From a virus: a stretch of 38,254 bases of DNA. Location of the stretch: positions 1-38,254 of the IMG/VR virus record IMGVR_UViG_3300027833_000113; one strand, written 5' to 3'. Every line of letters begins with the position of its first letter. Within the stretch, counting starts at the first letter, position 1. This document shows positions 2,689-18,427 of the stretch, piece after piece. Both the position numbers and the translations under genes were made by a program. The notes beneath the pieces are model-generated. The model was not told the DNA's origin and made no database searches. It saw only the letters and a list, made by a program, of their open reading frames with translations.

Positions 2689-3375
2689 ATGGAATCAACA
2701 GTAATAAAATTCCCAAAGCAAATCCAAGTGACATACATTGATCACATGGGCACAGATCTTTCTGTAGTCAACGCAGCACGCGTGAGCTTCGGAAAAACAA
2801 GTAAACTAGAAGAACAACCACACGGTCCAGCACGACTCAAAGAAAACGATTCCAAACTGATAAACTACCTAGCAAAGCACAAACACTTGTCACCATTCGG
2901 CCATTGCTTCGCATCCTTTCACGTAAAAGCACCAGTGTTTGTAGCGCGCCAATTAGTAAAACATAAATACTTACGCTGGAATGAAATAAGCAGAAGATAC
3001 GTGTTTGACGAATCAGAATTCTTTAACACAGAGCACTGGCGCGGCGCATCAGAAGATAAAAAGCAAGGAAGCGAAGGAGTAATAAGCATATCAAAATTCA
3101 GACAAAAGGCGTATAAAACAGCAGTGAACTCATGCAAAGCCGTATACAACCAGCTGCTGAAAGACGGAGTAGCTCCAGAACAAGCTAGAATGATACTACC
3201 ACAATCTGCGATGACGGAATGGTACTGGTCAGGCTCGCTAGACGCGCTGGCAGCAATGTGCAAACTGCGGTGTGCAAGCGACACACAGAAAGAGTCACGA
3301 GAAGCAGCAAATCAAATACACGCTGAAATGGCAAAGCTATACCCAGTGTCATGGAAAGCGTTGATAGAAAGTTAA
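2689..3375 (+). CDS. thyX: Flavin-dependent thymidylate synthase ThyX
   Basis: ThyX converts dUMP to dTMP using FAD, methylene-tetrahydrofolate and NADPH. The 228-residue length is typical. Visible signatures are NAARVSFG (28-35), the HLSPFGH stretch (66-72), and the ThyX motif region at 87-104: RQ87-88, then KHK at 91-93, R96, N98-E99, S101 and R103-Y104. The canonical motif is RHRxxSxNExSxRY, so here RHR is KHK and the first Ser is Arg; the remaining positions agree. The start follows AAAGGATAACCCTT. Its product supplies thymidine nucleotides for phage DNA synthesis, which frees the ThyA-family protein encoded next door for another reaction. Confidence 0.9.
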   Translation: MESTVIKFPKQIQVTYIDHMGTDLSVVNAARVSFGKTSKLEEQPHGPARLKENDSKLINYLAKHKHLSPFGHCFASFHVKAPVFVARQLVKHKYLRWNEISRRYVFDESEFFNTEHWRGASEDKKQGSEGVISISKFRQKAYKTAVNSCKAVYNQLLKDGVAPEQARMILPQSAMTEWYWSGSLDALAAMCKLRCASDTQKESREAANQIHAEMAKLYPVSWKALIES

Positions 3376-3379
3376 TATA

Positions 3380-4024
3380 ATGTATGTAAACAAAGTAAAA
3401 GAGATTCGAAACAAACTAATAAAACTCAAGAAACGTACAAAACCAAAAGAAATGATAGAAATAGTAAATGCATCGTTTATAGCAGACGAGGAAAGCATAT
3501 TCGGTAAAGTAAACGAAGATTACATACAACGCGAATTTAAATGGTACGCGTCACAAAGCCTGAACGTGCACGACATAGAAGGCGTAGTGCCAGATATATG
3601 GGCGCAAGTGTCGGGTGCAGATGGCAGCATCAACTCAAACTACGGATGGTGCCAATTTTCATACGAGAACTGTTTTCAATACGATAGTGCAATCGCAAGT
3701 CTAAGAAAAGACCTAAACAGTAGACAAGGCGCGATGATATTCAACAGACCATCGATGCATATGGACGCGATAGAATGTGGTCGATCAGATTTCATGTGCA
3801 CATACGCACACCAAATGATGTTCAGAGACGGCAAGCTTAACTACCACGTGTACATGCGATCAAACGACGTAGTGTTTGGCTACAACAATGATAAAGCGTG
3901 GGCAGACTACGTGCACGATTTAGCAGCAAAAGACCTTGGAGTAGAAAAAGGCGTAATGTACTGGAACGCAGCAAGCCTTCACGTATACCCACGTCACCAT
4001 CATTTAGTAGTGCAAAAACCATGA
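3380..4024 (+). CDS. ThyA-superfamily enzyme, probable dCMP hydroxymethylase
   Basis: The 214-residue product belongs to the thymidylate synthase/dCMP hydroxymethylase family. I see the catalytic Cys140 in DFMCTYAH, the phosphate-binding R160-S161-x-D163 in YMRSNDVVFGY, and the nucleotide-binding HVYPRH near the C-terminus (201-206). Thymidylate synthases have Asn in the GLPFN motif (N177 in E. coli) to read uracil; here the aligned residue is Asp171 (GYNND). T4 dCMP hydroxymethylase has Asp (D179) at this position, which lets it accept cytosine. With ThyX next door making dTMP, a role in making 5-hydroxymethyl-dCMP is the best reading. No glucosyltransferase is visible. It starts four bases after thyX and overlaps the next small gene by ATGA. 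Confidence 0.75.
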   Translation: MYVNKVKEIRNKLIKLKKRTKPKEMIEIVNASFIADEESIFGKVNEDYIQREFKWYASQSLNVHDIEGVVPDIWAQVSGADGSINSNYGWCQFSYENCFQYDSAIASLRKDLNSRQGAMIFNRPSMHMDAIECGRSDFMCTYAHQMMFRDGKLNYHVYMRSNDVVFGYNNDKAWADYVHDLAAKDLGVEKGVMYWNAASLHVYPRHHHLVVQKP

Positions 4025-4358: not shown

Positions 4359-4670
4359 ATGCATTACAAAATTAAAGCTACGCGCACAGAAGCATACGTG
4401 GGATCAACGAACAACCCATACACAGATGAATATGTGAAAGCGCTCAAAGCGCAAGTGCGTAAAAACAACAAAGCAATGCGCAAAGAAGCACGACGCACAG
4501 GAGTGTTCAACTTCTATGGTCGCACGCTGCAACGCGTGAACATCAAACCACGTGGACCACGCGAAAAGAATGCGCGCCACACACAGATTAAAGATGCACG
4601 TTACTTCGATATATATTTGCACAAAGACACGACAGGTAACTGGCGAATGTACAAAGAACTAAACGGCTAA
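4359..4670 (+). CDS. Hypothetical protein with the shared 25-residue segment
   Basis: The 103-residue basic product is not recognised. Residues about 54-78 (GRTLQRVNIKP through HTQIK) are almost identical to the C-terminus of the product of 1515-1898, but here the protein continues for 25 residues (KDARYFDIYLHKDTTGNW and on). The longer tail suggests this gene carries the complete version of the segment. The start follows GAAAGCAAGAAA. Confidence 0.55.
   Translation: MHYKIKATRTEAYVGSTNNPYTDEYVKALKAQVRKNNKAMRKEARRTGVFNFYGRTLQRVNIKPRGPREKNARHTQIKDARYFDIYLHKDTTGNWRMYKELNG
4519..4591 (+). repeat. 73-bp segment shared with 1816-1888, copy 2
   Basis: This is the second copy of the in-frame shared segment, differing by one base. 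Here it lies inside the gene, with coding sequence on both sides that has no counterpart at the first copy. Confidence 0.9.
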
Positions 4671-4877: not shown

Positions 4878-5037
4878 CATACAAGAATATGATGCGTGGA
4901 TGTCAGATCTACAATCACAGCTCGAAGACTACGAATCGTGTGATGATGAAGAAGGCGCATACGTCGCAGAATGTGACATAAGAAACCTAGCAAGCGCGTA
5001 CGCGTCACAAATCAAAAGAGAAAGAGCATGTCAATAA
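4858..5037 (+). CDS. Small acidic hypothetical protein
   Basis: A 59-residue product, MLWEDISIQEYDAWMSDLQ and on to IKRERACQ, is strongly acidic in the middle (YESCDDEEGAYVAECD). GAAAGGA lies about six bases upstream of ATG 4858. It overlaps both neighbours slightly (20 and 10 bases), the packing typical of this cluster. The acidic, DNA-mimic-like composition is common among small phage inhibitors, but I cannot assign a role. Confidence 0.5.
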   Translation: MLWEDISIQEYDAWMSDLQSQLEDYESCDDEEGAYVAECDIRNLASAYASQIKRERACQ

Positions 5038-5273
5038 ACTTCTCAAAGACAAATGCGATAACGCACAGAGACAACGCGATAACGCTCACGCAATACGCAG
5101 GAACGAAGTCAATGCGCTTTGAGAAAGGTAAATTGCGCACTGAATCAGAGACACGTTGTCAAGTGACGTCAGGCAGAAGATACATAACGATGTCAAAACA
5201 ACAAGCAGAGCAAGTAGGCTTAAACCTCTTAATGTGGGCAAAAGGAATGCCGACTAAAGAAATAGACGATTAA
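5028..5273 (+). CDS. Hypothetical early protein
   Basis: The 81-residue basic product (starts MSINFSKTNAITHRDN) is not recognised. The alternating polar/hydrophobic middle looks like a small beta sheet followed by a helix (MSKQQAEQVGLNLLMWAKGM). The start overlaps the previous gene by ten bases, with AAAGAGAAAGAG upstream. It is the last gene before the tmRNA. Confidence 0.55.
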   Translation: MSINFSKTNAITHRDNAITLTQYAGTKSMRFEKGKLRTESETRCQVTSGRRYITMSKQQAEQVGLNLLMWAKGMPTKEIDD

Positions 5274-5299
5274 ACAAGAGATTACCGTTTGAGTTCAAT

Positions 5300-5343
5300 C
5301 TAAAACGATCCTGGACCCGGCTGCAATGCCGGCATCTCCACCA
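5300..5343 (+). ncRNA. ssrA: Two-piece tmRNA: acceptor RNA segment
   Basis: The 3' half of the tRNA-like domain comes first, as in permuted tmRNA genes of Alphaproteobacteria. A T-arm hairpin CCGGC/GCCGG with loop TGCAAT is followed by CATCTCC-A-CCA; the CCA end (5341-5343) is encoded. CATCTCC pairs with GGGGATG at 5409-5415 to give a 7-bp acceptor stem with one G-U pair. The 5' boundary is approximate. The 65 bases between the pieces would be cut out during maturation. Confidence 0.85.
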
Positions 5344-5408
5344 TAAGGGCACTATGATCAGCTTAGCACTCGATGCATAGAAACCGCATCCTCTGGTGTC
5401 CTTTTTAT

Positions 5409-5560
5409 GGGGATGAATTAGATTTCGACAGGGCGCGTAGGCAAGAACGAGGTATTCGGTTGAGCACCGTAATCGGCTTAAAAACTATAAGTGCAAACAC
5501 AAACGCACCTATGGCGCTAGCAGCGTAACAACTGCAACCGCCGGGGTTTTACTATCTTTT
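5409..5560 (+). ncRNA. ssrA: Two-piece tmRNA: coding RNA segment
   Basis: tmRNA with SmpB rescues stalled ribosomes and adds a degradation tag. This piece starts with the 5' tRNA-like half, GGGGATGAATTAGATTTCGAC, minus its last base close to the standard tmRNA 5' end. A pseudoknot-like region follows, then AAAACTATAAGT and the resume codon GCA (5493). The open frame 5493-5528 encodes the tag ANTNAPMALAA and a TAA stop; the ALAA end is the classic proteolysis signal. A CTATCTTT/AAAGATAG hairpin at 5552-5582 may close the transcript or be its last stem, so the 3' end is approximate. I see no SmpB gene, so host SmpB is presumably used. Confidence 0.88.
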
Positions 5561-5663
5561 CCTAGCAACAGAATAAAGATAGACATATAACAACAACTAA
5601 GCAAAAACAAGACGAGATACACAAGCAAAAACGTAAACTTATCAGACTTGAGGAGGTTTAATT

Positions 5664-6836: not shown

Positions 6837-7038
6837 ACAAGCAATAACGCGCTGTGGTACAGAAACAGACATGCAAGAAGAGTCAAACGAATCAAATAAC
6901 ATCTTAACAATAAAATGGGTAATAGATCCCGACGACGACATTAAAATTGAAGTGTTACGACATCCAGGAATGGATCACCAAGACACAATAGAGTTCATAG
7001 AAGAGTTTGTAGAAACACTCAAAGAACAAAACGAATAA
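6826..7038 (+). CDS. Small acidic hypothetical protein (GTG start)
   Basis: GTG 6826 is the best start: GAGGAGCT lies seven bases upstream, and an in-frame ATG at 6784 falls inside the previous gene with no ribosome site. The 70-residue product is acidic, with IKWVIDPDDDIKIEV and a C-terminal helix (DTIEFIEEFVETLKEQ). This is the last gene of the early transcription unit; its stop lies next to a strong terminator. Confidence 0.55.
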   Translation: MPTEQAITRCGTETDMQEESNESNNILTIKWVIDPDDDIKIEVLRHPGMDHQDTIEFIEEFVETLKEQNE

Positions 7039-7042
7039 AAAA

Positions 7043-7083
7043 ACCCCAGAGATCCTTTAATAGGATGCTCTGGGGTAATTTTT
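7043..7083 (+). terminator. Strong intrinsic terminator ending the early unit
   Basis: A stem ACCCCAGAG/CTCTGGGGT extended by ATCCT/AGGAT around a TTTAA-type loop is followed by AATTTTT. An A-run precedes it, so it could also act on the minus strand, where a transcript arrives from the gene at 7184-7603. It starts four bases after the last early stop codon. Confidence 0.9.
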
Positions 7084-7173
7084 CGCCTAACCGACAAGGC
7101 GCATTTGACTTTCTTTTCGCCTAACCGACAAGGCGCATTTGACTTTCTTTTCGCCTAACCGACAAGGCGCAAA
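7084..7173 (+). repeat. Three tandem copies of a 34-bp hairpin repeat
   Basis: Copies start at 7084, 7118 and 7152; the third is cut short after about 20 bases. Each begins CGCCTAACCGACAAGGCG, a 5-bp stem CGCCT/AGGCG, followed by a T-rich spacer ending TTTCTTTT. The array lies between two converging genes. Stacked weak terminators or protein-binding iterons, for example at an origin, are both possible. It is not a CRISPR, because the units abut without variable spacers. Confidence 0.85.
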
Positions 7174-7183
7174 TTGCATCTGC

Positions 7184-7603: not shown

Positions 7604-7636
7604 GATAGATTCCTATAATGTTTAAGGGAGAGGAAG

Positions 7637-7661
7637 AACGCCCGCTCTTGCGAGCGTGCGC
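7637..7661 (+). promoter_or_regulatory. Conserved hairpin element, copy 2 (candidate promoter)
   Basis: This is an identical copy of the 25-base hairpin element at 397-421 and 11062-11086, here in the 154-base divergent gap between the minus-strand gene and the nucleotide-metabolism unit. It is followed by ATTAAG. Its position and orientation would suit transcription of the + strand genes from 7758 on. Confidence 0.55.
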
Positions 7662-7708
7662 ATTAAGAAGAAAAGTCTAAGGCTACATCTTAGCAAAACC
7701 CAGCCCCC

Positions 7709-9641: not shown

Positions 9642-9676
9642 GCAGTGAAATAATACTTCGACCATACCAATTCTGT
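9642..9676 (+). CDS. nrdJ: Class II ribonucleotide reductase, exon 2 (35-nt microexon)
   Basis: The microexon begins GCAGTGAAATAATAC and ends TTCTGT. With the T from exon 1 it encodes CSEIILRPYQFC (residues 331-342). This is the catalytic heart: Cys331 is the expected thiyl-radical cysteine of the NPCSE motif, Glu333 the catalytic glutamate, and Cys342 the second redox cysteine of the pair with Cys95. Splicing gives NPCSEIILRPYQFCNLSEI, an exact fit to the family. Without this exon the protein would be dead, so both introns must be removed precisely. Confidence 0.92.
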
Positions 9677-10067
9677 TAATAGATAGCAGAAGTAAAACAG
9701 GGTGAATTGCTGGGAAGCCTACGTGGAAACATATGGTAATCAGCAGCCAAGCTAGGGCTGGGAAGCCCCTGAAGGTTCAACGACTAGGACATACATACTA
9801 GAACAGTATATGAAGTCCATACACTCAAGCGAGTGGAAGCGCCCTGCCCCTATTAACTTAGGGTGATGATATAGTCTGATCTGTACGGAAACGTGCAGGA
9901 GAAAGAAGTTATAGAATGAAAATGAATCGTGAAGGCAATGTAATGGTTGTCTCTCACCGTGCAAACATGATGAAAGGTGGTGCCTCTCCAGAGGAGCTGC
10001 TTAAGTTTGCTGATTGGGCTATAACATGCTACCGCTAGTAACTAGCGTCTACTAGTGAACATAAATG
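9677..10067 (+). ncRNA. Group I intron 2 (td-like, 391 nt)
   Basis: P1 pairs exon TTCTGT with intron GCAGAA, again with U-G at the junction. Core elements are GGTAATCAGCAGCC, GGTTCAACGACTA and GATGATATAGTCTGATC, and the intron ends GAACATAAATG before AATCTAAGC. All these closely match the intron in the RNA polymerase gene at 18094-18427 and the known T4 td intron (subgroup IA2) ending. A 40-codon reading frame lies near the 3' end; no homing endonuclease is recognisable. Confidence 0.88.
9916..10038 (+). CDS. Intron-internal mini-ORF (candidate)
   Basis: A 40-codon frame inside intron 2 (starts MKMNREGNVMVVSHRANMM, ends FADWAITCYR) has balanced composition and two close Met starts. The upstream AGGAG at 9897 is about 14 bases away, too far for a strong site. 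It is not a recognisable homing endonuclease (no LAGLIDADG, GIY-YIG or HNH). It could be an unrelated small gene carried in the P9 region, or chance. Confidence 0.3.
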   Translation: MKMNREGNVMVVSHRANMMKGGASPEELLKFADWAITCYR

Positions 10068-11013: not shown

Positions 11014-11061
11014 ATCCTATATAATTGGGCTAAGCTACAGTAAAGTGCTTAACGTCGCTCT

Positions 11062-11121
11062 AACGCCCGCTCTTGCGAGCGTGCGCTATAAAGAGGTCAC
11101 TCGCCTAAGAGTGAGCTTCCT
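11062..11121 (+). promoter_or_regulatory. Conserved hairpin element, copy 3, plus a palindrome
   Basis: 11062-11086 is the third identical 25-base hairpin element, again preceded by CGCTCT as at copy 1. Right behind it (11092-11121) lies a palindrome of the covarying family with stem CACTC/GAGTG, flanked by GAGGT and AGCTTCC. The same order, 25-base element then palindrome, is seen at 397-451. The pair stands before the replication genes starting at 11142. Confidence 0.55.
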
Positions 11122-16929: not shown

Positions 16930-18093
16930 TTGAATTTGTATGCAATAAATCAAGTGATCGAGTACCTGAACCGCAAAGTCTCTCGCGTTAATCTAAATAA
17001 CCAGAAGGCAAACAGGGGTGGTGTGCTCGTTAAAACTCACCACGGTTGGGAAGACAAGTTGGAGAAGCTAGTCGCAGTTTCATTCCAGATTATTCAATCC
17101 CAATTCACACGAACATCAAGCGACTATCTTCCAGGTGAAGCAGGACTGACGGCAACATCAATGGTGATAGGTAAAGCGGTCGCAAGACTTATCAGTCGAG
17201 AACCTGTGAAGACAGAGCATCAGCTTACAATTGGTGACCTGTTTATCGAAGGCTTTGTGTACCATGGCTTTGCTGAACTCATTCCACCAACACGGCGTGA
17301 TGAGTCTTATATTCTCAAAGCAACTCCGAAGTGGGAAGAGCTTGCCGATATACCGTTGGAGTTAGTGAAAGAAACTATATTAGGCAGCTTCAAAGAGCCA
17401 CAAGCCGTCACTAAGAACGCTCATAAAATGCATGACTTCTTGTACGATGCCGACGCACCTTACGTGGTAGCGATAGAGAAGCTACAGAATGTACGCTGGA
17501 CGATCAATCATGCGATCATTGATAAGATAGTAGCTCCACCGTCTGAACCTCACGAGAATGATGCTAAAGAACAGAGACGGCGCAGCAAGGTCATCGAGTA
17601 TAAGTTTATAAAGTCAAAGGCAGAAGTCCTCAAAGATTGGGATTCGTTCTATCAGACTTTTGAAGCAGACTACCGTGGACGAATCTATAACACAGAGCCG
17701 TTTTTAAACTATCAAAGTTGTGACATGGCAAAGGGTTTGCTTCTATTTGCAGACGCTAAGCCTATTGACGATGCCGGCCAGTTCTGGTTAGCGGTTCATA
17801 CCGCCGCCTGCTACAACCAACACTACGCTCTTGATGATATTCCTGAGTGGTGTGAGCAAGACTATCGCGCGCACCTCTTAGAAGAGGGCTTGGAAGACAT
17901 CTCGGTAGACAAGATGACACTCAACGATAGAGCGAACTGGACTATGAACCACTGGGACAAGATCCTTCAAGGCGAGCTAGATCTGAGAGCTGAGAAGCCT
18001 TACATGTTCTTAGCGAGCTGCTATGAGTGGAGATTTGTGCAGGAGACAGGGTTAACTCAACTTCCTGTAGCTATCGATGGTTCGAACAACGGT
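16930..18093 (+). CDS. T7-type single-subunit RNA polymerase, exon 1
   Basis: This exon encodes residues 1-388. The start appears to be TTG (16930, or 16936) after AAGGGG; no in-frame ATG is nearby. The T/DxxGR motif is DYRGRIYNTEPF with Arg251. Motif A is VAIDGSNNG with Asp383, cut by the intron right after GGT. Spliced to exon 2 the enzyme has 729 residues, shorter than T7 RNAP (883) mainly at the N-terminus, where promoter recognition and melting functions reside. It probably transcribes late genes from the T7-like promoters at 7709-7731 and 37446-37468. Confidence 0.93.
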
Positions 18094-18427
18094 TAATTGC
18101 TAGCCGTTATAAAACCTTGTGAATTGACTGGGAACCCCTACCATTAAGTTGAGGGCAATCAGCAGCGAAGCCTCCTAACAGAGGAACGTTCAACGACTAT
18201 TCCGAAAGGAAGTACACTCAAGTGAGTGGAAGCGCAAGGCACTCTTTAGTTAGAGTGATGATATAGTCTGATCTGCATGGTAACATGCAGCAGGTTCTTA
18301 CAAACCTACTAACAATGGTTGACATACGTCCCTTATAGAGAACAACAAGGGATCGGCCTTCTCAAGATGGCATGGAGACAACTGTAAGAACCGGAGTAAG
18401 CCTAACGACCTTGCTCGAACATAAATG
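18094..18427 (+). ncRNA. Group I intron 3 in the RNA polymerase gene (td-like, 334 nt)
   Basis: P1 pairs exon AACGGT with intron GCCGTT, the splice-site U facing G. The core shows GGCAATCAGCAGC, GTTCAACGACTA and GATGATATAGTCTGATC, then a hairpin CTGCATGGTAACATGCAG, and it ends GTAAGCCTAACGACCTTGCTCGAACATAAATG-type sequence like the T4 td intron. Long stretches agree with intron 2 in the RNR gene, so the two are relatives. No ORF of note is inside, but a T7-type promoter sequence is (18322-18343). Splicing joins GSNNG to WQHLG. Confidence 0.9.
18322..18343 (+). promoter_or_regulatory. T7-type promoter-like sequence C inside intron 3
   Basis: ATACGTCCCTTATAGAG matches the core of site A (7709-7731, minus strand) at 16 of 17 positions, here on the + strand. 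Initiation would be at G18338. A transcript would cover the 3' part of the intron, exon 2 of the RNA polymerase and the next gene, ending at the terminator at 19.7 kb. Its function there is unclear. Confidence 0.5.

Follow-up and report, generated by a model that had tools for sequence, protein, structure and literature searches.

The window, the whole stretch of 38,254 nucleotides of viral DNA that was analysed (IMG/VR record IMGVR_UViG_3300027833_000113), carries at 5281–5583 on its plus strand a circularly permuted, two-piece gene for tmRNA, the RNA by which bacteria release stalled ribosomes, recognised well beyond chance. The gene, from a marine phage related to Roseobacter phages, is real and apparently intact and, judged from its sequence, most likely functions together with the SmpB protein of the host. 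In a cmscan of the window, the Rfam model RF04321 (tmRNA_permuted) matched 5281–5528 (+) with 90.5 bits (E 2.5e-16; gathering score 47) and was spanned entirely (1–213). The alpha_tmRNA model RF01849, named in advance by the earlier sequence-only reading as the test by which its proposal could be refuted, matched 5244–5583 with 60.7 bits (E 1.8e-14; gathering score 50), also over its entire length (1–355), a score far lower than the 283–309 bits obtained on four Rhodobacterales genes. Independently, ARAGORN called a permuted tmRNA at 5251–5619 with the tag ANTNAPMALAA, the tag frame already proposed, and the neighbouring genes are all of phage type, which bears out the identification of a phage-borne permuted tmRNA. 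The extent first given to the gene, 5300–5582, fits the RF01849 match at its right end but is too short at its left end, and since the RF04321, ARAGORN and RF01849 matches start at 5281, 5251 and 5244, respectively, the left boundary has to be moved upstream of 5300.

The acceptor piece precedes the coding piece, and the 7-bp acceptor stem connecting them across the spacer, as earlier proposed, is paired in 7/7 positions (GGGGATG with CATCTCC), including the G3-U70 alanine signal (Table 1). The G3-U70 pair and the CCA end are seen in GGGG and CTCC-ACCA at 5409–5412 and 5336–5343. The tag frame has the resume codon, the alanine-rich hydrophobic end and the stop expected of a tmRNA tag, and the predicted 3' helix ATCTTT/AAAGAT corresponds to the alpha-type GGCAACAGAA element. 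By analogy with known two-piece tmRNAs, the spacer is expected to be excised.

Table 1. Elements of the permuted tmRNA gene, in window coordinates.
Feature	Position	Strand	Remarks
Acceptor piece	5281–5343	+	5' boundary approximate, leader upstream from 5244/5251; CCA ends at 5343
T-arm, CCGGC / loop TGCAAT / GCCGG	5317–5332	+	5/5 pairs; stem covaries
Acceptor stem 3' strand CATCTCC and encoded ACCA	5333–5343	+	
Spacer, 65 nt	5344–5408	+	Ends pair, AAGGGCAC with GTGTCCTT; predicted hairpin continuous with acceptor stem
Acceptor stem 5' strand GGGGATG	5409–5415	+	G3 of the G3-U70 pair
Coding (mRNA-like) piece	5409–5583	+	3' end approximate (RF01849 5583, ARAGORN 5619)
Tag frame ANTNAPMALAA, stop TAA, resume codon GCA	5493–5528	+	ARAGORN
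3' helix ATCTTT...AAAGAT around CTAGCAACAGAA	5548–5583	+	RF01849 alignment and minimum-energy fold

Compared with dinucleotide shuffles, the region 5302–5425 folds at z -2.55 and the region 5281–5590 at z -2.2, and computed cofolding of both pieces yields the acceptor stem and the T-arm. In the fold of the window the spacer hairpin is stacked on the acceptor stem, as it is in Melnitz and other long-spacer phage copies, and such a hairpin would hold the ends together ahead of processing. When 21 distinct tRNA-like domains from viral contigs and Alphaproteobacteria were aligned, standard pairs filled 252 of 252 cells in the acceptor and T stems, compared with 52–60% paired in slid controls. Changes on both sides were found at 7/12 stem pairs, resulting in a covariation score of 0.52 versus 0.03–0.12 in the slid controls. 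The covarying stems are thus those of the family itself, and the window tmRNA fits every one of them.

On its plus strand the window encodes ThyX, a second thymidylate synthase, MazG, an intron-split ribonucleotide reductase, DNA polymerase, exonuclease, primase/helicase and an intron-split single-subunit RNA polymerase, and on its minus strand tail and other virion genes. The order of DNA polymerase, exonuclease, primase and RNA polymerase, followed by virion genes on the opposite strand, is that of Roseobacter phage CRP-7 (58 kb), the closest cultured relative by gene order, whose primase is 47% identical to that of the window. No gene for SmpB was found within the window, so that the protein of the host would be required. 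A promoter scan around the tmRNA gene found nothing, as expected if the phage RNA polymerase transcribes it, and no relatives were found for the neighbouring ORF 5028–5273. The IMG/VR record is a genome fragment: it has no terminal repeats, its last right-hand ORF runs past its end, and no terminase, portal or capsid genes were recognised in the window. Its length is therefore uninformative, and the suggestion that the gene is unusual for a genome of this size had to be abandoned, all the more with CRP-7 at 58 kb. Nor is tmRNA new in mid-size phages, since 63-kb siphophages of the alphaproteobacterium Bradyrhizobium elkanii carry it (PMC12656738).

Several other features of the record were observed. 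The early arm in which the tmRNA gene lies also encodes at 568–1053 a SAM-lyase-like protein (PF23780, 36.3 bits, cut-off 28), similar to the T3-type anti-restriction early genes. Two adjoining thymidylate synthase-type genes (2689–3375 and 3380–4024) belong to different PHROGs (phrog_85 and phrog_160), and a 73-bp direct repeat of 99% identity lies within two different small ORFs (1816–1888 and 4519–4591). The palindromic element AACGCCCGCTCTTGCGAGCGTGCGC occurs three times, always between genes, at 384–426, 7624–7666 and 11049–11091, and may be a terminator or a phage promoter/processing site. Common to positions 384, 7624 and 11049, this repeat, together with the continuous composition, speaks against a chimeric origin of the left 7 kb. 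The RNA polymerase gene contains a group I intron at 18093–18426 (RF00028, 96.6 bits), the boundaries of which are fixed by a natural intron-less allele, the 99% identical contig IMGVR_UViG_3300025880_001313 (L161/L125), whose alignment with the window stops at 18092 and continues from 18427. A second group I intron, at 9667–9898 (RF00028, 84.8 bits), separates the halves of the ribonucleotide reductase gene and, judged from matching flanks, appears to be kept in the same contig (L161), from which the polymerase intron is missing. Between early genes of CRP-7 (L226), positions 570–633 match the Type II hammerhead ribozyme (50.1 bits, cut-off 37).

As far as can be seen, the tmRNA gene is sporadic within the CRP-7-like group, since none of the 99 related records searched, viral contigs and phages and many of them fragments, matched RF04321 at E 0.001, and the complete genome of CRP-7 was among them. 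Two contigs with more than 99% identity to the window terminate short of the gene, at window positions 6919 and 7080, and relatives with 84% RNA polymerase identity also end before the locus. Three 34-bp tandem repeats occupy 7080–7181, where one of the near-identical contigs breaks off. Exact-sequence scans of viral contigs with the T-arm and coding start of the window gave 0 matches, and in 398 host-phylum genomes searched at the DNA level no more than two short, marginal matches appeared. The gene was also without a match in INPHARED by BLASTN, so identity-based searching is too weak here.

The two-piece form, which the sequence-only reading called unusual in a genome of this size, had already been published, mainly from marine and aquatic phages (PMC9004378), and motif scans of IMG/VR found it in 56 further viral contigs, 8 with a long and 48 with a short spacer. 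The cut-off of RF04321 was exceeded in 30/30 motif-positive phage contigs tested. Among the first eight motif-positive viral contigs, Rfam recognised 8/8 and ARAGORN only 3/8; L228, L229, L231, L232 and L233 were missed by ARAGORN and scored 77–104 bits with RF04321. Because of these misses, the published counts of phage two-piece tmRNA, which are based on ARAGORN, are probably too low. The permuted tmRNAs of the viral contigs (L228–L235 and L298–L345) resemble that of the window in the TTTCGAC signature, the acceptor stem and the T-arm, but belong to different phages, have mostly shorter spacers and carry other tags, among them ANDSNYDLALAA, ANNNFAMAA and ANDNFVSQEYALAA. When 84,980 bacterial and archaeal species were scanned for the phage-type motif, defined by TTTCGACAGG and a spacer of 10–40 nt, none matched it exactly; given the spacer limits of the scan, this absence of the TTTCGACAGG motif is only suggestive. 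In a FastTree analysis of tRNA-like domains, the window is found among phage sequences, beside Melnitz (0.73) and within a phage clade (0.975), but the tree provides weak support only, because it uses 120 nt per sequence and phage sequences picked mostly by the TTTCGAC motif. The tRNA-like domain of the window is at most about 72% identical to the sampled bacterial genes.

It is quite likely that the gene encodes a functional supplementary tmRNA of a CRP-7-like phage with an alphaproteobacterial host, probably one of the Rhodobacterales. We infer a single precursor transcript whose acceptor strands are joined by the spacer hairpin; RNase P would cut before GGGGATG and the encoded CCA would remain after 3' maturation, so that the acceptor stem would keep two RNAs together. 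G3-U70 would be recognised by the alanyl-tRNA synthetase (AlaRS) of the host, and delivery of the phage tmRNA to stalled ribosomes would be the task of host SmpB and EF-Tu. Translation would then continue in the phage tag frame, ANTNAPMALAA would be appended, and after termination the ribosomes could be used again. The tag ends in ALAA, as a ClpXP-type degron is expected to do. Presumably, the phage would benefit by keeping ribosomes available when mRNA decay during infection yields many non-stop messages. The two roles brought forward in the sequence-only reading, ribosomes kept free or tagging redirected, are plausible and correspond to those proposed for Melnitz, namely maintaining translation or tagging host proteins (PMC9004378).

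In two respects the window tmRNA departs from its relatives. Its T-loop, TGCAAT, has 6 nt, compared with 7 nt in nearly all sequences examined, so that of the 5-bp stem and 7-nt loop of a T-arm only the stem is present. A loop of 7 nt is typical of tmRNA and not defining, and the 6-nt loop recurs in two unrelated phage tmRNAs (L302 and L326). Furthermore, helix 2, which adjoins the CGAC motif, is weak and short, with 4 contiguous pairs. We regard the unusual T-loop as a minor point, and the phage-lineage signature likewise.

Instead of simply adding rescue capacity, the phage RNA might divert SmpB, EF-Tu or AlaRS, or replace the host tag; the unusual T-loop would suit such a competitor, and mycobacteriophage DS6A provides a precedent with a tmRNA consisting only of the tRNA-like domain, a molecule reported to inhibit tmRNA, possibly by titrating SmpB (PMC4131195). 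This is unlikely for the window gene, in which the tag frame, the resume codon, the stop and the alanine-rich ...ALAA end, all needless for a pure decoy, are kept. Similarly improbable is the wider proposal that marine phages possess a permuted tmRNA lineage of their own, distinct from that of their hosts, and that the window copy, diverged in T-loop and tag, competes with or reprograms the host tmRNA. A decayed or non-expressed gene, with a recent deletion in the T-loop or an assembly error there, is very unlikely: the short loop speaks for it, and with one contig of a single assembly covering the site the loop may be an assembly error, yet every stem is intact, as are the CCA and the tag frame, and the same loop length is found in L302 and L326. 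Although tmRNA genes often serve as sites of integration and prophages can contain fragments of ssrA (PMC9004378, PMC11915505), it is highly improbable that a temperate phage acquired a piece of host ssrA as attP, since the gene is complete in both pieces, in the tag frame and in the 3' element, where an attP usually retains the gene end only, the window has no match to the tyrosine integrase family PF00589, and the tRNA-like domain is not close to any of the sampled bacterial genes. A working supplementary tmRNA thus remains the preferred reading. With it, a CRP-7-like podovirus fragment joins the aquatic phages with two-piece tmRNA, which supports the view that such genes are commoner in phages than annotation suggests, and makes testable both the gain of a phage from its own ribosome-rescue RNA and the replacement of the host tag by the phage tag.

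Among known systems, the closest parallel in a phage is the two-piece ssrA of the marine Methylophilales phage Melnitz (EXVC044M; PMC9004378), which is likewise permuted, with G3-U70, an encoded CCA and a long spacer with paired ends and a hairpin on the acceptor stem, and which is of alpha type by Rfam as well (RF04321 113.4 bits, RF01849 106.7 bits). Melnitz differs in being a 141.5-kb myovirus, in its spacer of 142 nt versus 65 nt, and in the glutamine riboswitch annotated and detected on the 3' side of its ssrA, none being found in the window. Compared with the ssrA of Alphaproteobacteria, as in the Rhodobacterales Roseovarius and Thioclava (RF01849), the permuted order, the 7-bp acceptor stem, G3-U70, the GGAC motif and the 3' GCAACAGAA element are shared, whereas in the bacterial copies the acceptor strand is followed by GGATCGACG (window: GATTTCGACAGG), the T-loop is GGCGGTA (window: TGCAAT) and the spacers measure 22–46 nt (window: 65 nt). 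In the window tag, AN-N-AP-ALAA is common to it and the Rhodobacterales tag ANDNRAPVALAA, the closest in pattern, although the Rhodobacterales genomes compared were fetched by a pattern for this tag; Alphaproteobacteria taken without such selection show a wide variety of tags (ANDNEAFAVAA, ANDNDLALAA and others). The likeness to ANDNRAPVALAA is therefore suggestive of the Rhodobacterales as host group and no proof of it. In an earlier survey tmRNA was found in 402 of 18,146 phage genomes, 53 of them with the two-piece form by ARAGORN and 50 of these 53 marine or aquatic (PMC9004378), and the study in which RF04321 was introduced lists 79 unique phage tmRNA sequences (PMC11915505). Such genes are known in many aquatic phages, and that of the window is a new example of them, not a new kind.
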